In this document: in pieces, positions 4,884 through 17,083 of the stretch | Layout: each line of letters begins with the position of its first letter | How positions within the stretch are numbered: position 1 is the stretch's first letter | Assembly: GCA_020718905.1 (NCBI GenBank) | Contig: DYRD01000015.1 | Span: 1-40,959 of the forward strand | Source of the DNA: Syntrophus aciditrophicus | GTDB lineage: Bacteria > Desulfobacterota > Syntrophia > Syntrophales > UBA8958 | Length of the DNA stretch: 40,959 nt | Direction of reading: 5' to 3' | Position numbers and translations under genes: made by a program | The notes under the pieces: generated by a model | Told to the model about the DNA's origin: nothing | What the model saw: the letters and a program-made list of their open reading frames with translations, nothing else | The model's database searches: none

Positions 4884-6002
4884 TCATATCCCCAGGATAT
4901 TGCACAGCACCGTAATAATCGCCGTGGCGATCACGATGCTCACGATCCCCGTCACCACCGCGGACATCGTCGCCTGCCCGACGGCGGCAGCGCTCCGCTC
5001 GCATTGGAGCCCCCGGAGGCATCCCGTAACCGCAATGAGGATGCCGAAAACGGCACTCATAAAAAGGCCGACCCACATATCATTGAGCCTGACGGCATTC
5101 GTCATCGTCACTCCGACCATAAGCCCGCCGAGAACACCCATGAAATCGGCGTAGAGGCACAGCAGGGGCATCATCACGGCCAGGGCGACCATTCTGGGCA
5201 GCACGAGAAATTCCATCGGCGGGATACCCAGGGTCTTGAGGGCGTCGATTTCCTCATTTGTCTGCATGGTCCCAAGCTGGGCGGCGAAAGCCGCCCTCGT
5301 CCGTCCGGCCATGATCACCCCCGTCATGATCGCTCCCATCTCCCGGAAAACGCCGATTCCGACCAGATTGGCGATATAAATTTGGGCGCCGAACATGCTC
5401 AATTGGATGGCTCCGACAAAGGCAAGGATGACACCGACGAGCAGACTGATCAGGGAAACGATGGGGAGGGCCTGAATCCCGCATTCCTCGATGGCGACGA
5501 AGAGATCGCGGCGGCGGAAGCGGGCCTGCCCCCGGAGCAATCTTCCGAAGGCCACCGTCGCCTCACCGATAAAGGCGAACACTTCCTGGGTACCCTGCCA
5601 GCAGGGGTAAACTTCCTGTCCCAGCTGTTCCAGGATAGGCGTCCGGACCTTTTCGCGTCTGGCCCCGGCCCTCTCCGGGACGGCATAGGCCAGGGTCAGA
5701 AGCCCCTGAACACCCGGGGGAAGCCCTCCCCGGTCCACAGAGACGTCCCGTTGCCGGCCATAGTCAATGATATTGATGAGGAAGGTGATGAGGACGCTGC
5801 TCCAGCCTCCTAACCCGGAACATTCAAAGGTAACGTTTTTAGTCGCCGGGTCCTGCTCAATTTGCCGGAATACTTCCGAGGCCGGGGGCAATTTCTCTCC
5901 CGCCCGCCATTGCCCCCGCAGAACAATGAGCAGTTTTCCCATATCCGAACGGACAAAAGAGAGCATACTCTCGTCAATTTGCCTATTCAAGAGGGCTACC
6001 AT
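4884..6002 (-). CDS. mlaE: MlaE-type permease with N-terminal STAS-like domain
   Basis: Inner-membrane permease of the lipid ABC transporter, 372 residues. Residues 1 to about 110 look like a STAS/MlaB-like domain (LRGQWRAGEKLPPASEVF, then VTFECSGLGGWSSVL); the remainder is the MlaE permease with several membrane helices and the conserved cytoplasmic helix TNEEIDALKTLGIPPMEFLV, which contacts the ATPase. E. coli has these as separate MlaB and MlaE; fused forms are common elsewhere. I take ATG at 6002, because AAAGGTGGGG lies just before it; the in-frame GTG at 6008 has no spaced ribosome site. A TATACT at 6035-6040 (minus strand) could be a -10 box, but no convincing -35 is present. Confidence 0.92.
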   Translation of the reverse strand: MVALLNRQIDESMLSFVRSDMGKLLIVLRGQWRAGEKLPPASEVFRQIEQDPATKNVTFECSGLGGWSSVLITFLINIIDYGRQRDVSVDRGGLPPGVQGLLTLAYAVPERAGARREKVRTPILEQLGQEVYPCWQGTQEVFAFIGEATVAFGRLLRGQARFRRRDLFVAIEECGIQALPIVSLISLLVGVILAFVGAIQLSMFGAQIYIANLVGIGVFREMGAIMTGVIMAGRTRAAFAAQLGTMQTNEEIDALKTLGIPPMEFLVLPRMVALAVMMPLLCLYADFMGVLGGLMVGVTMTNAVRLNDMWVGLFMSAVFGILIAVTGCLRGLQCERSAAAVGQATMSAVVTGIVSIVIATAIITVLCNILGI

Positions 6003-6179
6003 CCCCACCTTTACTGAAAGCTAATGAACCCACCAGTATACCGGAAGGTCACTCTGGATTACCTCTTTCCTGGACACGGCAGGCGGCAGGGGATATCACC
6101 CGAAGCGGCAAAATATGATCCCCACCGGCTCTCGTTTTTTCGCCATAGCGGCGATAATATTTATTTTTCCAGCCCCGCT

Positions 6180-8663
6180 TCAGGAAACAACAGTCAATAA
6201 TTTCTTGATATCAAGGTCAAGGACCTTGGCCACCTTGGCAACGAGAGCGCTGTTCGGATCGAGCCGGGCGTCGCTGATCATCATGACCTCCATCGTAAGC
6301 TTCACGGCCGCTTCACGTTCCTCCTTGGTCGGCAGGAGCTTGGCCAGAGAGGCAAGCGCCCGATCCTCCTCGATGAGGAGCATAAAATACTGCTCCCAGA
6401 TCATTTTCCTGGCTATTTCAGGCCTTATTTCCTCTTTCTGGTGCCGCTTCTCAAGTTGTTTGGCGATGAGACGGGACCGATAATCGATGGCCCCGATGTG
6501 GATCATACTGGCAATGATCAGGCGGATCAGGGCCTCATCGAAACCGCCCTTGTCCATCTCGTTTCTCAGACGCTCAATTTCCGCATGAATTGCCGCCTCC
6601 TGGGCCTCGTTTTCCTCGGCCATAGCCACGGCCTTCCTGGCCGGAAAGAGCGGCGCCAGCCCCAGCGGTCCGTACATGGCTTTGAATATGTTGCGGTAAA
6701 GGTCGTCCCGCACATCCCGATAACCATTAAGGCGATTCTCGATCGTCTGGGCCATGTCTTGCTCCATTGTCAGGAAATAGTTGTTTTCCGATACCTGTTT
6801 GCGGTTCTTCCGGACCCAGTCCGCCCAGATCTTGAAGGTCGCCATAAAGGGATTCACCCGCTCGGAAAAGAGGTAATATTTCATCCGGCTCTTATTGAGC
6901 CAGCGCATCATCTCCGCGCTCCGTTCCGTTGTTATCATCCGGACCCAGGGCTGGAGGAAGGTTCGGTACAGTTCATCATTGAAATATGATACCTCTACCA
7001 CGGAGGCAAAATAATCGTCATCCCGGCGGGAGTCATTGAGGGCCATTATGTCTTTAATCTTCCGCATTTCAAACCGGCAGACGAAGTCACCCTGGATCAG
7101 TTCCCCATGTTCCGTGAAGGGATTCTTCTTCTCAAGGATCATTTCGTATAGCCCCGGTGGCAGGCCATCGATCATCTCGAGGGTCGTGACAAACTCGGCA
7201 TGTTGTTTTCTGGCGATGGAGGCGCCCACAAAGATTCCCAGGTGGCCTACATCGGGATGGAGGGTGTAGATGATCACTTGACCGTCCTTCAGGATAGCTT
7301 CGTCGGTGCCGTAAACATCGACAATCCAGTTGAGGGCCTGCTGAGGAGGGGTAATGTTGTCTCCGAATGAGGCAAAGATGACGATGGGGCACTTAATATT
7401 CTTCAGGTTGACACGTCGGCCGTCGGGAGTGGTAATGCCGCCCTTGGCCAATTTATTCCCGACAAAAAGATTGGTTACGATGGCATCGATCTCCTCGGCG
7501 TTCATCAGGAAGAAGCCGCTCCACCACTCCTCGAAATGGAGATAGCGTTCCGCCTCCGTGTCGATTTTGGCATAGAGGTTATACTCCTTGGCAAAGAGGG
7601 TATTGGCGGGGTTGAGATTCTCGAAGTTCTGGACGAGATAGGCTCCGTCGAATCTGCCGTTACCCAGGTCGCAGGTCAGCGTGGTGAGCCACTTGCCGCC
7701 CAGGAGGCCGCCGGAATAACGCATGGGGTTTTTGTTCTTGTATCCCGCCCAGTAGGACATCGGGGCGCCGTTCAAGATAATGGTTCCCATGATATCCGGA
7801 TCAACGACGGCCCAGCCGGCCTGGCAGTTTCCCATGACGCAGGGTTTCTCCGCCTCAGGATGCCGGCGGATGACTTCCTGAAGAAACAGGTGCTCGGCAC
7901 GGCCGACATCGTTCAGGGTTTGCCCCGGTTCCGGCTTGGGGAAGAACATGACAAAATATACGTGATGGCCGCCTTGCAGGGCGACGCCCACCTGGGATTC
8001 ACTTTTGGACCCGCCGATCCCCGGCCCGTGCCCCGCCCGGGGATCAACGATAACGAAGGGGCGCTTCCTGGGATCGATAGCCATGCCTGCTCCGGGGATA
8101 ATCCTGAGCAGGGCGTAATTGACGGGATTCTCCAGCGTCCGTCCGGCGATGATCGTTTCATACTCGAACTGTAATACCGGCGGCTCTCCCTCCTGGATAT
8201 GGTGGAGAAAGTTATCCCCCCGCTGCCGCATGACATCCCAGAAAAGGATTTGCCGCTGGATCATATCCACGCCATATTCCCATAGGTCTTTGGCGGCGGC
8301 GTTGCCCTCCCATGTTCCTTTTATTCCCTTGAAGAAAGAGGTCTGACCAAGTCCGGCGAAGGGTTTTTTCACCTCCTCGTCTTGCTTGTCCGTGTCCGTC
8401 CCTGCCGCCCTGGCAGCGGCAGCGGCTTTTTCCGGTGCCTGCTGTTTGCCCGGTGGGGGGACCGGTTTCGTTGCCGCTGCCGTTTTAACGGCAGCAGCCT
8501 CTTCGGGAATCGCCGCCTTTCCTTTTTTTGCCGCCTTTACAGATTTTACGGGTTCAGAAGGCGCCTTTAGGGACGTCTTTTTTATCTCCGGATCGAGAAC
8601 TGACGACACGGCCGCCTTAATCTTGGCTGCCTTGTCCTTAACCGGCGCTGCTATCTTGGCCAT
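6180..8663 (-). CDS. DUF3141 family, PhaC-like alpha/beta-hydrolase
   Basis: 827 residues. The first 105 or so are a Lys/Ala/Pro-rich low-complexity segment (VKAAKKGKAAIPEE and similar). Then comes an alpha/beta-hydrolase core like PHA synthases, with a Cys nucleophile elbow VMGNCQAGWA (Cys near 280), an Asp in ASFGDNITPP and a His in HPDVGHLGIFV. The C-terminal 250 residues are mostly helical and charged. DUF3141 proteins are related to PHA synthases, but their reaction is not established; acyltransfer or hydrolysis through a Cys-Asp-His triad is an inference. ATG at 8663 has AAGGGGG about 10 bases upstream. In the given sequence the upstream PduL frame runs straight into this one through a C9 run (8673-8681), so the two could be one polypeptide or two overlapping genes. 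Confidence 0.82.
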   Translation of the reverse strand: MAKIAAPVKDKAAKIKAAVSSVLDPEIKKTSLKAPSEPVKSVKAAKKGKAAIPEEAAAVKTAAATKPVPPPGKQQAPEKAAAAARAAGTDTDKQDEEVKKPFAGLGQTSFFKGIKGTWEGNAAAKDLWEYGVDMIQRQILFWDVMRQRGDNFLHHIQEGEPPVLQFEYETIIAGRTLENPVNYALLRIIPGAGMAIDPRKRPFVIVDPRAGHGPGIGGSKSESQVGVALQGGHHVYFVMFFPKPEPGQTLNDVGRAEHLFLQEVIRRHPEAEKPCVMGNCQAGWAVVDPDIMGTIILNGAPMSYWAGYKNKNPMRYSGGLLGGKWLTTLTCDLGNGRFDGAYLVQNFENLNPANTLFAKEYNLYAKIDTEAERYLHFEEWWSGFFLMNAEEIDAIVTNLFVGNKLAKGGITTPDGRRVNLKNIKCPIVIFASFGDNITPPQQALNWIVDVYGTDEAILKDGQVIIYTLHPDVGHLGIFVGASIARKQHAEFVTTLEMIDGLPPGLYEMILEKKNPFTEHGELIQGDFVCRFEMRKIKDIMALNDSRRDDDYFASVVEVSYFNDELYRTFLQPWVRMITTERSAEMMRWLNKSRMKYYLFSERVNPFMATFKIWADWVRKNRKQVSENNYFLTMEQDMAQTIENRLNGYRDVRDDLYRNIFKAMYGPLGLAPLFPARKAVAMAEENEAQEAAIHAEIERLRNEMDKGGFDEALIRLIIASMIHIGAIDYRSRLIAKQLEKRHQKEEIRPEIARKMIWEQYFMLLIEEDRALASLAKLLPTKEEREAAVKLTMEVMMISDARLDPNSALVAKVAKVLDLDIKKLLTVVS

Positions 8664-11032
8664 GATGGATATCCCCCCCCCTTTTTTGTCGGTTGAAACA
8701 AACTGCCTGTGCTCTATTGATTCGATATATCCCGTGTCTCCCGTCTTGATTTCGGCGGCGTTGCCCTCATCCGTATCGAGGTGCATGTCGAGGCGGAAGT
8801 TCTGATCCACCCGGATCAGGACATCGCCGAAGATGAGCCCTCGCCCTCCTTCCTTGCGCACCCGGACGACATCCTTGTCCCGGAGTCCGAACTTGAGGGC
8901 GTCATCGGTGGACATGTGAATGTGGCGCTTGGCGCAGATTACCCCCTTATCCAGCCGGACTTCTCCCCGGGGACCCACCACCGTAATCCCCGGTGTTCCT
9001 TCGATATCCCCGGAATCACGGATCGGCGGATCGATGCCGAGCTTGAACTGCTCCGTCCGGGAGATTTCCAGCTGACTGTATTTTCTCGCCGGGCCGAGGG
9101 TGCGGACCTTCTCCAGGGTTCCCTTCGGGCCGATTAGATCGACCGTTTCCTCGGCGGCAAACTGACCCGGCTGGCTGAGAGGCGACTTCGGCGTCATCGT
9201 TTTCCCCTTGCCGAAGAGGAGTTCGAAATTTTCCTGGGTCAGGTGGATATGGTGGGCCGAAATGCTCAAGGGAATGGGGGTGGTCTTGAAGACCTTCATG
9301 TCCGTATCGGAGCGGACCAAGCCGACAGTGCGGAGGGTATTCCGGGCAATCATCCGTTCCTCGTCGGCGGGAATCACGAGCACCCGGACCTTGGCATTGG
9401 GTTCCGCGACGTCGACGACCTGCCCCCGCTCCGGCCGGGCATCGCGATTGATATTATGATCAATGGTCATGCCGAAGGTCTCGAAACCCTGAAAGATTCT
9501 GGCCCGGATCTCCGGGGAGTTTTCCCCGATGCCACCGGTGAAGACGACCACATCGAGGCCGCCCAGGGCGACGGTATAGGCGCCGATATATTTCTTGATC
9601 CGATAGCAGAAGACGCTGATCGCTTCCAGGGCGTGGGTGTCGCCATTATCCGCCGCCGCGAGGGGTTCCCGCATGTCGTTGGTCAGGCCGCTGATTCCCT
9701 TGAGACCGCTGTCCCTGTTGAAGATGTTTTCCAAGTCGACGGCGTTTCTGCCTTTCCGGAGGAGATGGAAAATTACGCCCGCGTCGACATCCCCCGGTCG
9801 CGTCCCCATGACCAAGCCCTCCAGGGGGGTCATCCCCATGCTCGTATCGATGCTCCGGCCGTGATCGATGGCGCGCAGACCGAAGCGCCGCTGCCCAAGT
9901 GACAGGTGATCATCTTGAGCTCGCTCAAGGGTTTTTTGAGAAAAGTAGCGGCATTGAGGGCGACATATTCATGATTTGTTCCGTGGAATCCGTACCGGCG
10001 GATCCTTTCCTCCGCACAGAGCTGACGGGGCAGGGCATAAGTCGCCGCCGCCGGAATGGTCTGATGGAAGGTGTTGTCGAAAACGGCAACCTGCTGCGCC
10101 CCGGGGAGAAGTTTCCGGAACAGTTCGATTCCCTCGATGTTGTAGGGATTATGGAGGGGAGCCAGATCGGAGACGGATCTGATCTGCTCCAGGACCTGGT
10201 CGTCGATGATAACGGGTCCGTTGAAAAGTCCGCCGCCGTGGGTTACCCGGTGGCCGACCGCCTTGAATTCCCGGACGTCCCGGACGGTGCCGCCGACCGC
10301 GGGATAGGAAATGGCCTCAATCATGAAGTCGAAGGCCTTCTCCATGTTGGGTACCGCCCCCAGGGACACTGATTTCTTGAACTTGGGGGTGACAACCTTG
10401 TGCTGGGCGTCATCGGAACCGATCCGCTCGATCGTTCCCTCGATCAGAGGATCTTTCTGGGTGGTATCGAAGATGGTGTATTTCAGGGAGGAACTTCCGC
10501 AATTGATGACGGAGATCTTCATCGGCTCCGAGGCGGAGGTAAAATAGAGATCGTAGGGATCATGGCTGGCAAGTTGGGCCGCTTTGCGAACCTCCTGCTC
10601 CTTCTGATAAAAGCCCATTTTAAAGACAATCTCGGTCAGATTCTTGGTTAACAGCAATGTAGCCGCAGGGTTTCGCTTGACCGCGGCCATAAAGACCGGC
10701 CGGGGAATACGGACCAACGTGCTGAGCTTGGTTGTCTGATAGTCAAAAGCCACCATATTCCCCGTAAAAACGGAAAGATCGCCAAATATCCGCCCCTTCT
10801 CCAAGTAGGTCAGCACTTCTTCATTTGTTCCTTCGGCAGGAAGGGGTACGGCTATCTCACCTTCGTAAATAATCCAAGTGGAATTATGGGATTCCCCCCG
10901 TTTCACCACGTCAATTCCGGCAGCTAATTCAATAATTTCCGAAGCTTTAACGCACTCAGCAAGTTCTTCGGCGGAAAACAGGGATATTAAAGGGTTGGTC
11001 TGGAAAAATGCCTTCAGGTCATTGACCGCCAT
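8651..11032 (-). CDS. cNMP-binding domain / acetate kinase / PduL fusion, frameshifted
   Basis: Start ATG at 11032 with GAGGAGGAG eight bases upstream. Residues about 10-135 are a CRP-like cyclic-nucleotide domain (WIIYEGEIAV, then GRIFGDLSVFTGNMVAF); the usual GE...R pocket reads GD...no Arg, so it may not bind cAMP. Acetate kinase starts at 171 with MKISVINCGSSSLKY and has GHRVTHGG, FDNTFHQTIP, YGFHGTNHEYV, and after one frameshift DHGRSIDTSMG, EGLVMGTRPGD and FTGGIGENS. A PduL-type phosphotransacylase follows in frame, with the two zinc-site motifs SAHHIHLT and AKRHIHMS. The enzyme would interconvert acetyl-CoA and acetate plus ATP in one chain. The break is at GCGC (9871-9874), where two extra bases (or one missing) shift the frame inside the kinase. 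End placed at TAG 8651, assuming one G fewer in the run at 8673-8681. Confidence 0.83.
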
Positions 11033-11121
11033 AGCTAACTCCTCCTCGCTTTGCGTGAAAATGTCTTTTTCTGCCTCCCCTGAAACGGAGAGGCCGAAAA
11101 ATTTCGTATTCTCCTTCCTTT

Positions 11122-12647
11122 TCAAGGAGAGAGAGGGGGTGGGGCTGGACTGGGTTCTTCCGTGGTGATGGCGTACCCGCTGGCCATCTTGTCTGCTTCG
11201 GTGATCCAGCCTCCCCCCATGGTCTTGTAGACATTCACCAGGGATTGAAAAAGGGTTCCTTTGGTCTGAACCTGGGAGAGCTGGCCGTTGAAAAGGCTCC
11301 GTTCCGGGTCCAGCACCTCCATGTAGCTGCTATAACCGTTATCGTACCTGAGCCCGGCCAGCCTTCTGGTATTCTTGAGGGCCTTGACCTGATCGCCCTG
11401 GACGGAAATGCGCTCCCGGGATTTCCGCTGATCTACCAGGGAATCGTCCACTTCCCGAAACTCCGTCTGCACCGTTTGCAGATATTTCGCCAGGGCCTGC
11501 TGCTGGATTGCCTCCGCCTGCTTCACCTGACCCTTGATTTTGCCGGCGGTAAAGATGGGGGCCGTAAGGGAAGCGGCATAGTTCCATGTCTTGGCCGGTC
11601 CCGTCAGGAGATCGTTCAGCTCGGCGCTGGCGAAACCGAAGAGCCCCGTAAGGGAGATGGAGGGAAAGTACAGTGCCTTTGCTACGGCGATCCGGGCGTT
11701 GGCGGCGACCAGATCCTGTTCTGCCTGACGGATATCGGGGCGGCGTTCGAGAAGATCCGAAGGAAGCCCCTCCGGAACCGTTGGCAGGACCAGCTCGTCA
11801 AGGGTCCTGCCCTGGTAATGGGACCGGGATTGCGCCCGAGGAGCAGATTAAGGGCGTTTTCCTGCTGGGCGATATTCTTTTCCAACTGGGGAATAACCGC
11901 CCGGGTGTCTTCATATTCCGACCGGGACTGGTTCAGTTCCAGCTCCGAAATGACGCCGCCGGCATAACGTTTTTCGAAAATATCCAGGGAATCCTTGCGG
12001 GTATTAAGAGTTTCCTTGGCAATTACCAGTTGCTGGTCATAATTAAGGAGATTGATGTAACCGTTGGCTACGGAAGCCACCAGGGTCATGATCACGGCCC
12101 GGCGGGCCTCGTCGGTGCTCAAGAGATCGGCCCGGGCTCCTTCCGTCGCGCGTCTGAGCTTGCCCCAGATGTCGAGCTCCCAGCTGGCATTAAGATTGCC
12201 TTGAAAGGTATTGGAAGTGGGCGACAAGGTCGGCGACCACCCGGTGGGTCCTACTTCCGTCGATCGCTGCCGGCCCGCACTTGCCCCCACTCCCACCTGG
12301 GGGAAGAGATCGGACCGGGTGACGCCGAGCTTGCCCATATATTCTTCAACCCGGGACGTAGCGATGCGAATATCCTTGTTTTCCTTCAGGGCCGTCTGGA
12401 TCAGTTCATTAAGCGCTGGATCCTGGAATTGCCCCCACCAGGCGGTGTTGGCCAAAGCCTTGGCGTCCTTCTCTACGAAGCGCCAGTTCTGGGGCGTATC
12501 CACGGTCGGACGTTTGTAGTCCTTGCCGAGCGTGCAGCCTCCCAGAAGCAGGGCAATGGCAACGGCAGTAAAAAGGCTTCTTATCCTTACCGCTTTTGAT
12601 TTGCGCTTTGCCCTTGGTAGTTCCATATTCATGCTGGCAATCTTCAA
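11122..12647 (-). CDS. Outer-membrane efflux factor (OprM/NodT type), frameshifted
   Basis: TolC-like outer-membrane channel of the RND operon. Lipoprotein signal with LLLGGC lipobox, then DYKRPTVDTPQNWRF, WWGQFQDPALNELIQTAL, ASWELDIWGKLRRA, ERRPDIRQAEQDLVAANARI, ISLTGLFGFAS and, near the end, YDNGYSSYMEVLDPERSLF, all standard OprM-family segments. One base is missing near 11810-11812 (AGGGCAGG should be AGGGGCAGG), which splits the open frame. I choose the TTG at 12647, because AGGAGG lies nine bases before it; the ATG at 12632 would be 24 bases from that site. Last gene of the MFP-RND-OMF operon; its end is 90 bases before the cNMP-acetate kinase start. Confidence 0.85.
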
Positions 12648-12676
12648 TTCAGTTGCCCTCCTTTCCCGGTGAAGTT

Positions 12677-15600
12677 TCATGTCCCGGGTCCCCGGCCCCC
12701 TTTTTTTATCGGACCGTGTGCTAAAGGTTGCGAGGATCTGGAAGAAAAGGGGAATAAAGAAAATGGCGATCACCGTCGCCCCCAGCATGCCGCCGATGAC
12801 GCCGGTGCCGATGGAATGGCGGCTGTTGGCCGAGGCGCCCGAGGCAATAGCAAGAGGTACGCAGCCCAGGATGAAAGCGATGGAGGTCATGACGATGGGG
12901 CGGAGCCGGAGCCTGGCCGCTGCGAGGGCGGCGTCGTAAATGGACATCCCCTCCGCCCGTTTCATGACGGCGAATTCCGTGATGAGAATGCCGTTCTTGG
13001 CGGCGAGGGCGATGAGGGTCAAGAGGCCGATCTGGAAATAGATGTCGTTCTCAATCCCCCGCAGCAGGATGGACAGCAGGGCCCCGAGGAGGGCGAAGGG
13101 AACCGCCATGAGGACGCCGAAGGGCAAAGACCACTTCTCGTACTGGGCAGCCAGGATCAGGAAGACCATGATCAGGCCGAAGACGAACACCAGTCCGGAA
13201 GTCCCCCCCGCCTTCTTCTGGTAGAAGGCCTCGCCGCTCCAGGCATAGCTGAAATCATCAGGCAGGACTTCCTTTGCCGCCCGCTCCATGGCGTCAATGG
13301 CCTGACCGGAACTGTAACCGGGGGCGGGTCCGCCGATGATGTTGGCCGCGGGGAAATTATTGAAGCGGTTGACGATATCGGGTCCGGATTCATGTTTTGT
13401 GGTGATCACCGATTGGAGGGGCACCATACGGCCGTCGTGGGAACGGACATAAACCTGGGTCAAATCATCAGGACGGGAGCGATACTGGGGTTCCGCCTGG
13501 ACAATGACCTGCCAGAGGCGGCTGAACTTGTTGAACTGGCTCACATAAGCAGACCCGAAGAGGATCTGGAGGGTATCATAGACATTCTGGACGGGGACTC
13601 CCAGGGTTTCCGACTTCTCCCGGTCCACATCCACCCGCAACTGCTGGGAGTAGGCGTTCAATCAATGTCGAGTTGACGCCGTGCAATTCCGGTTGCTTGC
13701 GGCAATGATCGATAAACTTGTTTGTCACTTCCTGTAGTTTCGCAGCGTTCCCCTCGCCGCGGTTGAGAATCCAGAACTGAAAGCCCCCCATGTTGCCCAG
13801 GCCGGGAATAGAGGGAGGATTAAAGGGCATGACCACCCCTTCCTTGATCCGGGAGAAGTTCTTGAAGGCCGCAGCAATAATCGCCGGGGCCTTGAGCTCG
13901 TCCTTGTCTCTTTTTTCGTAATCCTTGAGGGAGACGAAGATGACGCCGGCGTTCGCTTTCAAGGCGCTGTCCACGAGACTGTAGCCGGCAAACTCACTGA
14001 CATCCTGGACGGCCGGATGGTTCATGAAAAACTTCGCCTTCTTGCCCCCTACGTCCTCCGTTCGGTCAAGAGACGCCGTATCGGGAAGAAAACTCACCCC
14101 GAAAAGATAGCCTTGATCCTCAGAGGGGACAAAACTCGTGGGAGTTTTATAAAACATCAACCCCACGAGCACCAGCATAATGACAAAGACGATCATTGCC
14201 GTCTTCGTATGCTTGAGCATTTTGGCGACCCCGCCGGTGTAGCCGTGGGTCACTTTAAGGAAAAAGGCCTCAAACCATTTAAAGAAGCCTTTCTTTTCCC
14301 CCGTCTTGTGCTGGAGGAGGAGGGCCGCCAGGGCCGGGGACAGGGTCAGGGCAACGATCCCCGAGAAGACGACGGAAATGGCGATGGTCACGGCAAACTG
14401 CTTGTCGAGCTGTCCCGTCATGCCGCCCAGAAAGGCGACGGGGACGAAAACGGCGCACAAGACGAGCATTATGGCGATCACCGGTCCCGTAACCTCGTCG
14501 ATGGCCTTTTTCGCCGCCTCCTTGGGAGACAGGTGAAACTCCTCCATGTTCCGCTCTACGTTCTCGATGACGACGATGGCGTCGTCCACGACAATCCCGA
14601 TGGCGAGGACCATCCCGAAGAGGGTCAGCATGTTGATGGAAAAACCTAAGAGGATCATCCCCGTGGCGTTGCCGATAATGGAGATGGGGACGGCCAAAAT
14701 GGGGATGATCGTGGCCCGGGCGCTCTGGAGAAAGATGTAGACCACGAGGATGACGAGGAGGCAGGCCTCGAAGAAAGTAATGATGACGTCCTTAATCGAT
14801 GCCCGGACAAAGTTGGTGGAATCCATGGCGATCTTGTAATCGATCCCGTCGGGGAAATTCTTTTTCATCTGTTCCAGGGTTTGCTTCACCTGGTCCGAAA
14901 ACTGGACGGCGTTGGCCCCGGGTTGCTGGTAAACGGCGAGGAGCGTCGCCGTCTTGCCGTTCATTTTCGTGCGCACGGAGTAGTCTTTCGATCCCAACTG
15001 CGCCCGCCCGACGTCTCGCAGACGGACGATCGCCGAACCGTCCTTGTTGGCGAGGATAATATTTTCGAATTCCTGGGGGGGTCGTCAGAGGACCCTTGGT
15101 GGTCACGGAAAAGGTCTGTTCGACCCGGCCGTCCGTAGGGGACTGGCCGATCTTGCCGACGGCGAACTGCTGGTTCTGATTTTGAATGGCGCTGGAGACG
15201 TCGGAGGCCGTAATGCCGAGCTGGGCCATCCGGTCCGGTTTTAACCAGATGCGCATGGCGTAGTCCGGGGTGCCCAGGATCGCCGTCTGGTTGTCCCCTT
15301 CGATGCGCTTCAGGGCGTCGAGGACGTAGAGGTTGGTGTAATTGGCCACATAAGTCTGGTCCTAGCGGTCATCGGGAGAATAGACGCCAATGACCATAAG
15401 AAAGGAGCTCGATTTTTTTTGTACCTGAAGACCTTGCTGCTGGACCGATTGGGGCAACTGGGGCAGTGCGATGTTGACCCGGTTCTGGACATCGACCTGG
15501 GCCATGTCGGGGTCGGTCCAAATCTCGAAAAACACCGTCAGAGTCATCGTTCCCATCCCCGTGGCGACGGAGTTCATATAGATCATATTGTCGGCGCCGT

Positions 15601-15811
15601 TTACCTGCAGCTCGATGGGAGAGGCGACATTCTGGGCGATAACGTCGGCACTGGCCCCAGGATAGATAGCCGACACCTGGATCTGGGGAGGGGTAATTTC
15701 CGGGTATTGGGCGATGGGCAGGTTGAACATCGCCACCCCGCCGGCAATGACAATCACGATGGAGATAACGGCGGCAAAGATGGGCCGGTCAATAAAGAAT
15801 CTCGAGATCAT
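12677..15811 (-). pseudogene. RND efflux transporter, HAE1 (AcrB) type, multiply disrupted
   Basis: Inner-membrane proton-driven drug efflux pump. Reconstructed length (about 1045 codons) equals a normal AcrB-family protein. Start MISRFFIDRPIFAAV at 15811. Conserved segments: YPEITPPQIQVSAIYPGASA, the helix 4 Asp pair in IVVDDAIVVIENVERNM, the helix 10 Lys in ALAAKNGILITEFA and PSEDQGYLFG. Lesions: in-frame TAG at 15362-15364 (a Tyr codon would fit), one extra G in the G7 run 15075-15081, a 4-bp tandem CAAT duplication at 13659-13666, and a T7 run (12701-12707) that fuses the end to the outer-membrane gene; with T6 the gene stops at 12677. Four lesions in one gene exceed what a single homopolymer error explains, so it may be inactive. 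Confidence 0.85.
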
Positions 15812-15823
15812 GGCGGCCTCCCC

Positions 15824-17052
15824 TTACTTCCTGGCCGGAGCGGCGGTCTTTGCCTCTTCCCCGGCGGTTGCCGGCGGCGGGGTGCCCGCAGCGGTCTTCA
15901 GCTTGTCGACGACCTTCACGGGTGCATCCTGGGCCAGCATCATGACGCCGTCCACGATTACCCGGTCGTTGGCGGCCAACCCCTTGGTAATGAAGATGTC
16001 GTCGCCGATCCAGTCGCCCACGGTGACGTGGCGGACCTCCGCCCTGCCCTGCTTATAGATGCACCAGACAAATTGTCCTTTGGCCCCTTCAAAGACCGCC
16101 CGCCGGGGGACGACGATGGCGTTGGGACGACTGGCGCCCTTGAGGCGGACCCGGACAAACTGGCCAGGTTTCAGGATGCCCTTGGGGTTTTCCATGGTGG
16201 CTTTGATGAGAAACATCCCCGTCTCCTTGCTGAAGGAGGGATCGGCAAAGATCAGGTGCCCCTGCTGTAGATCAATGGAGCCGTCGGCGAGGACCAGTTC
16301 CACGATAAATTTTTCCCCGCGCGGAAAGCGGAGGGCGCCTTTCTTAATTTCCTCCATAGAACTGAGATATTGGTTCTCCGACAGGCTGAAGGTGACCCAC
16401 ATGGGGTTCATCTTGGCCACATAGGTGAGGAGGCTGTCCGTGGCGGAGATATACGTTCCATCCTGCTTTTTGGCCTGACTGGAGAGGCCCGTCACGGGGG
16501 ACGTGATAACGACGGTATAACTGAGATTAAGTTCCGCTTCTCTGACCTTTCCCTGAGCCGCAAGGACCGAAGCGGCGGTGGCCTGCTCCTGTCCCGTGGC
16601 GTCATCGAGGTCCTTCTTGCTGACGGCGTTTTGCTCCGCCAGGGGCTTTACGCGGGCTAGATTGGCCTTGGCCGTCGCCCACCGGGCCTCTTGCTGGGCC
16701 AGTTCACCTTTCGCCTGCTGGAGGGCGGCCTGGAAATCCCGCTGGTCGATCCGGAACAGGACCTGCCCCGCTTTGACCAGCGATCCTTCTTCATATACCC
16801 GTTTGTCGAGGAAACCCGCAACACGGGCGCGGATTTCCACCATATGGGAACTTTCCGTCTGCCCGACCCACTCGAATACGACCGGGGTATCCTTGGGGGT
16901 GACGGTGACGGCGGTCGCTGGGCGCCCCCCTGCTGATCCTTCCCGCATCCCGGCAGGAGGCCGACGGCAAGGACGATACAAAATAAAACCAAGGTAATTT
17001 TAAAAGGATAACGAGGTGTAAGGATAGAATAGCGCCAGTTTGCCGTTTTCAT
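15824..17052 (-). CDS. RND periplasmic adaptor (AcrA/MFP), frameshifted
   Basis: Membrane-fusion protein linking the RND pump to the outer-membrane channel. Signal peptide with GLLPGC lipobox, barrel-sandwich halves (VEIRARVAGFLDKRVYEEG and TVVITSPVTGLSS), a helical hairpin rich in Ala/Gln/Glu between them, and a beta-barrel region (MENPKGILKPGQFVRVRL) before an Ala/Pro-rich tail. One G is missing in the C6 run at 16925-16930 (plus strand), between the lipobox segment and the first barrel strand. ATG at 17052 is preferred, since GGGGAAG precedes it; the ATG at 17085 lacks a good site. Stops 12 bases before the RND start, so the genes are co-transcribed. Confidence 0.86.
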
Positions 17053-17083
17053 AACTTCCCCACTCAAATTAAATTCTCGAAAC

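Follow-up and report, generated by a model that had tools for sequence, protein, structure and literature searches.

A probable frame-damaged member of a conserved one-gene family joining a cyclic-nucleotide-binding-like domain, acetate kinase and PduL phosphotransacylase

The locus analysed here brings together three domains that are each known, and it is their combination that is new. The acetate kinase AckA (PF00871, TIGR00016), with 1tuu from Methanosarcina thermophila as the best solved relative, shares a full-length domain and the catalytic residues with the central part of the protein; in the present family, however, the kinase is fused on both sides. The phosphate propanoyltransferase PduL (PF06130; best solved relative 5cuo) shares six zinc ligands with the C-terminal part, which differs in being tethered behind the kinase, and the match to 5cuo begins inside the domain. 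Direct fusion of a cNMP-binding-like domain (CNBD) to an acetyl-transfer enzyme is represented by mycobacterial Pat Rv0998 (4avb), but Pat is a protein lysine acetyltransferase that was crystallised with cAMP, and the arginine needed for cAMP is absent in our family. A second CNBD of interest is that of the cAMP-independent PKA regulatory subunit of Trypanosoma (6hyq, with guanosine), in which V, T, A or N stands in place of the phosphate-binding arginine and nucleoside analogues are the ligands found to bind with high affinity (PMC6440977). Finally, WP_011798166.1 of Polaromonas naphthalenivorans joins the same pair, AckA and PduL, in a single chain, likewise beside a DUF3141 gene; it lacks the CNBD, however, and is annotated only as an acetate/propionate family kinase, the name under which AckA-PduL chains are already present in RefSeq. 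We found no relevant paper on the CNBD-AckA-PduL layout in the open-licence literature, which agrees with the sequence-only reading, to which no described protein of this kind was known.

The window, by which we mean the entire stretch of 40,959 nucleotides that was analysed (contig DYRD01000015.1 of assembly GCA_020718905.1), encodes the three domains on its minus strand, in the order and orientation first proposed and recovered by Pfam (PF00027, PF00871 and PF06130). With a probability of roughly 0.7, we read it as a frame-damaged member of a conserved group of one-gene CNBD-AckA-PduL enzymes, which would carry out the PduL and AckA reactions with the CNBD modulating them on a non-classical ligand. 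The ATG start at 11032, proposed from the sequence, coincides with the start position found in congeners. The CNBD and its C-terminal helix occupy 10568..11032 (PF00027 at approximately 10670-10930, E 1.6e-8) and are followed by a conserved linker from sensor to kinase, DPYDLxFS (10523..10561), in which D, P, Y and L are invariant across 30 homologues. The N-terminal part of the acetate kinase lies at 9845..10516 (PF00871 positions 2-222, E 9.6e-70) and the C-terminal part, in a different frame, at 9342..9878 (positions 213-392, E 8.4e-59); together the two halves span positions 2-392. The PduL domain covers 8697..9311 (match to 5cuo, E 1.1e-52), its metal ligands are kept, and 8697 corresponds to the last residue in the congeners. 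The AckA-PduL joint contains neither a stop nor a homopolymer in the given sequence, as had been claimed.

The description of this region as one gene does not hold for the window copy as a single frame. The open reading frame at 9830-11125 carries the CNBD and the first half of the kinase, and that at 6180-9839, in a different frame, carries the second half, PduL and a DUF3141 domain. The split arises because of an additional GC in GCGCGC at 9871..9876, within the interval 9860-9880 already flagged as doubtful by the sequence-only reading; five congener sequences have two bases fewer at this site and a continuous frame. The congeners encode an intact CNBD-AckA-PduL protein of 778 residues that ends in TAA TAA and precedes a separate DUF3141 gene, and intact proteins of this layout range from about 774 to 778 residues. 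Because the three-domain frame is broken in the window copy as sequenced and open in the congeners, we regard this copy as a damaged homologue. The fusion itself is genuine: dozens of genomes carry the fused frame without a break, which led us to reject a fusion by chance or assembly, and close homologues are consistently fused rather than encoded as separate genes. With eight frame breaks in the 29.3 kb aligned to the congeners' open frames, the layout is not decidable from the window alone.

Two congener loci of about 19 kb each contain no frame breaks. The assembly that holds the window has breaks on all three contigs sampled, with one in 20.7 kb and three in 11.8 kb on the other contigs. 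Besides the kinase, the genes broken in the window include those for MlaD, an outer-membrane efflux protein and an RND pump, among others. Further breaks lie at approximately 2814, 3690, 11812, 13662, 15076, 21692, 22353 and 23380, several of them in short runs or short tandem duplications. The breaks in the window copy more probably stem from errors of sequencing or assembly, or from decay of recent date, than from a property of the family. Of error and decay, we tentatively favour error, as unrelated genes are affected and several breaks coincide with short runs or duplications. That the gene is decaying in this strain, a pseudogene from which nothing is made, is nonetheless plausible, though we lean against it. 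The kinase frame is broken and the stop is gone, rpoB and rpoC in the same assembly have intact frames, and a second copy in that assembly is reduced to pieces; damage to unrelated genes on this and other contigs, however, follows the pattern of assembly error. The remnant of the second paralogue (G000:C259:4019-4909, L034) comprises three pieces (CNBD 1-111, AckA 267-321 and PduL 93-201) separated by large internal gaps, and could be either a pseudogene or a misassembly.

By our own count, which takes in contig-edge fragments, about 31 of the 155 class genomes encode the three-part protein, and AckA-PduL chains that lack the CNBD are found in a further eight. The three-part protein extends to a further family of the phylum, and the matches listed include Syntrophaceae UBA8930 and fen_1166, Candidatus Magnetominusculus (Nitrospirota) and Azonexaceae. 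Among the matches listed for the sensor-less form are Bacteroidota, Myxococcota, Spirochaetota and proteobacterial plasmids, and its spread appears to be the wider of the two. Two paralogues occur in the genus of the window: A, which includes the window copy, and B; identity between them is about 30% in the CNBD and 59-69% in the catalytic domains. An AckA tree unites the three-part proteins in a single clade (SH-aLRT 96), interrupted only by one Nitrospirota acetate kinase. This protein (L062:4779-6248) keeps a DPYxLxFS-like linker, has no CNBD or PduL in frame, and possibly reflects a secondary loss. A reduced AckA tree places all fused kinases, with or without a CNBD, on one side of a branch with a support of 91, which is not decisive. 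Such a grouping would fit an AckA-PduL fusion of old date to which a CNBD was added later.

Homology to characterised enzymes gives good support for catalysis by the AckA and PduL domains. The C-terminal PduL domain would reversibly convert acetyl-CoA and phosphate to acetyl phosphate, and the central kinase would reversibly convert acetyl phosphate and ADP to acetate and ATP. Against the AckA profile (PF00871 / TIGR00016, full-length) the congener protein L007 scores 455 bits, above the cut-off of 293. Locating the kinase residues through the numbering of 1tuu revealed that N7, S10, S12, K14, R91, H180, R241 and E384 are kept in the Syntrophales-type members, and outside Azonexaceae the kinase site is for the most part intact; relative to 1tuu, Asn211 is replaced by Ser in 28 of 36 sequences and Val93 by Thr in the window's group. 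The PduL ligands of the two zinc ions, H48, H50, E109, H157, H159 and H204, are invariant in all 49 fused sequences, the window's among them, and 48 of these keep Arg103 as well (residue roles from PMC4784909). Two Azonexaceae homologues (L054:5001-7304 and L057:2585-4861) retain the PduL ligands and have a degraded kinase site, with changes at S10, S12, K14, G331 and E384. These proteins may function as phosphotransacylases, the kinase part having become a pseudokinase. The Nitrospirota member L052 has kinase changes at S10, D283 and R285.

A CNBD fold is present at the N-terminus, where PF00027 scores above its cut-off. The predicted structure of this domain (mean pLDDT 70.8) matches the CNB-B domain of PKG II (5bv6) with a Z-score of 18.4 and an rmsd of 2.4 over 143 residues, Trypanosoma PKA with a Z-score of 16.3, and Rv0998 with a Z-score of 16.1. 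A long helix follows the barrel in the model. The full-length model, with a mean pLDDT of 64.5, is too weak for domain contacts. The CNBD, with its PKG/CRP fold, is tied to the kinase through this helix and the conserved linker. The phosphate-binding arginine of the cassette occurs in none of 30 homologues; Ala takes its place in 21 of the 30, and the replacements are mostly A, V and T, and also S. The GE motif is found in 24 of 30, GD in four members of the window's group, and Val in the two Azonexaceae sequences. The degenerate pocket noted earlier, with GD and no Arg, was thus read correctly for the window; across the family only the loss of the arginine is general, and GD is confined to one paralogue group.

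Absence of the arginine in all 30 homologues makes a cyclic nucleotide an unlikely ligand, and we disfavour a classical cAMP sensor on the same ground. We rate a cyclic nucleotide no worse than unlikely because mutation of the same arginine in mammalian RI-alpha lowered cAMP activation only five-fold (PMC6440977). Together, the fold, its retention and the missing arginine suggest that the CNBD modulates the enzyme pair when it binds some small ligand that is not a classical cyclic nucleotide. In this family, as in Trypanosoma PKA, the phosphate-binding arginine is in most cases replaced by a short neutral residue, but the pocket Glu that the kinetoplastid proteins have in place of Ala was not seen; the position is Ser in 29 of 30 homologues and Ala in one. 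By analogy, a nucleoside is only a lead. More specifically, the CNBD could have been repurposed for a non-cyclic metabolite, such as a nucleoside, an adenylate or an acyl compound, that sets the direction or rate of the one-chain conversion of acetyl-CoA to acetate and ATP, a proposal we regard as tentative. Both the sensor gating and the channelling of acetyl phosphate suggested by the sequence-only reading are hypotheses.

Alternatively, the CNBD could be a scaffold that dimerises or positions both enzymes and senses nothing. The faster evolution of this domain relative to the catalytic domains is the reason for considering such a role, with which the complete loss of the key arginine, the altered GE motif in some members and the modelled helix after the barrel would also agree. 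We nevertheless find it unlikely, as the structural glycines, the GE motif in most members and the linker have been retained over wide divergence, and CNBDs that lack the arginine are able to bind other ligands (PMC6440977). A modulating CNBD remains part of our main reading.

In the congeners, paralogue A is located between an RND efflux operon and the DUF3141-MlaE genes, and a comparison of neighbours found the DUF3141 gene adjoining in G003, G006 and G007. The corresponding window genes, all on the minus strand, are a DUF3141 gene of 827 amino acids (6180..8663; PF11339, E 1.5e-241), an MlaE permease gene downstream (4884..6008; PF02405) and, upstream at 11158..17061, genes for an outer-membrane efflux protein, an RND pump and a membrane-fusion protein, which contain the breaks at 11812, 13662 and 15076. 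A gene of 202 amino acids near MlaD was considered as MlaC and ruled out, since Pfam identifies an ABC_trans_aux lipoprotein. No microcompartment genes were found among the few neighbours scanned. Paralogue B stands alone; the single congener inspected for this has a separate Pta gene approximately 2.4 kb away, and a search of the paralogue B loci for DUF3141 found none. Next to paralogue B in G010 is a fusion of an acetyl-CoA hydrolase/transferase with a GNAT acetyltransferase domain (L040:6334-8199). Our neighbourhood search placed DUF3141 beside paralogue A and also beside certain AckA-PduL or Pta-AckA genes. On plasmids of Azospirillum (L185) and Ensifer (L186) it accompanies Pta and AckA, with RND efflux genes adjoining in Azospirillum; there, however, Pta and AckA are separate and Pta belongs to another protein family. 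A Polaromonas plasmid (L183:6266-10660) carries FabI, the AckA-PduL fusion and DUF3141. Based on these plasmids, we place paralogue A in a recurrent gene neighbourhood.

The gene end first assigned, 8651, falls on a TAG that is not in the PduL frame. The PduL frame of the window reads on into DUF3141 and ends at 6180 because no stop follows PduL, where an A6G9 run (plus strand 8673-8687) is found instead. Although no stop separates PduL from DUF3141 in the given sequence, a larger multi-domain protein produced by genuine read-through is highly improbable, and we rejected it, because in three congeners the last PduL residue is followed by TAA TAA and then by the ribosome-site-like AAGGAGGGG before the DUF3141 ATG, a one-base change in the run would close the frame, and the kinase frame is already broken upstream.

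How Syntrophales-type anaerobes obtain ATP from acetyl-CoA has been an open question. In Syntrophus aciditrophicus, homologues of AckA and Pta are absent and an AMP-forming synthetase is used instead (PMC4992975). The relatives analysed here have both steps in one sensor-bearing chain, and in G039 (99% complete) no other such route turned up: apart from the fusion, neither an acetate kinase nor a PduL was found, and there was no match to the PTA_PTB profile. In G008 and G010 no further kinase of this type was found except a weak, partial PF00871 match, probably a butyrate kinase, and PTA_PTB matches are only weak. Several genomes of the window's genus have a full separate Pta as well, and a search of the near-complete congener G002 found no fusion. 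Genes annotated plainly as acetate kinase can conceal a phosphotransacylase and a sensor. The CNBD-AckA-PduL protein offers a natural one-chain Pta-AckA system for the study of channelling and allostery. If the CNBD has been repurposed as proposed, substrate-level phosphorylation in some syntrophic-type bacteria would be under allosteric control.
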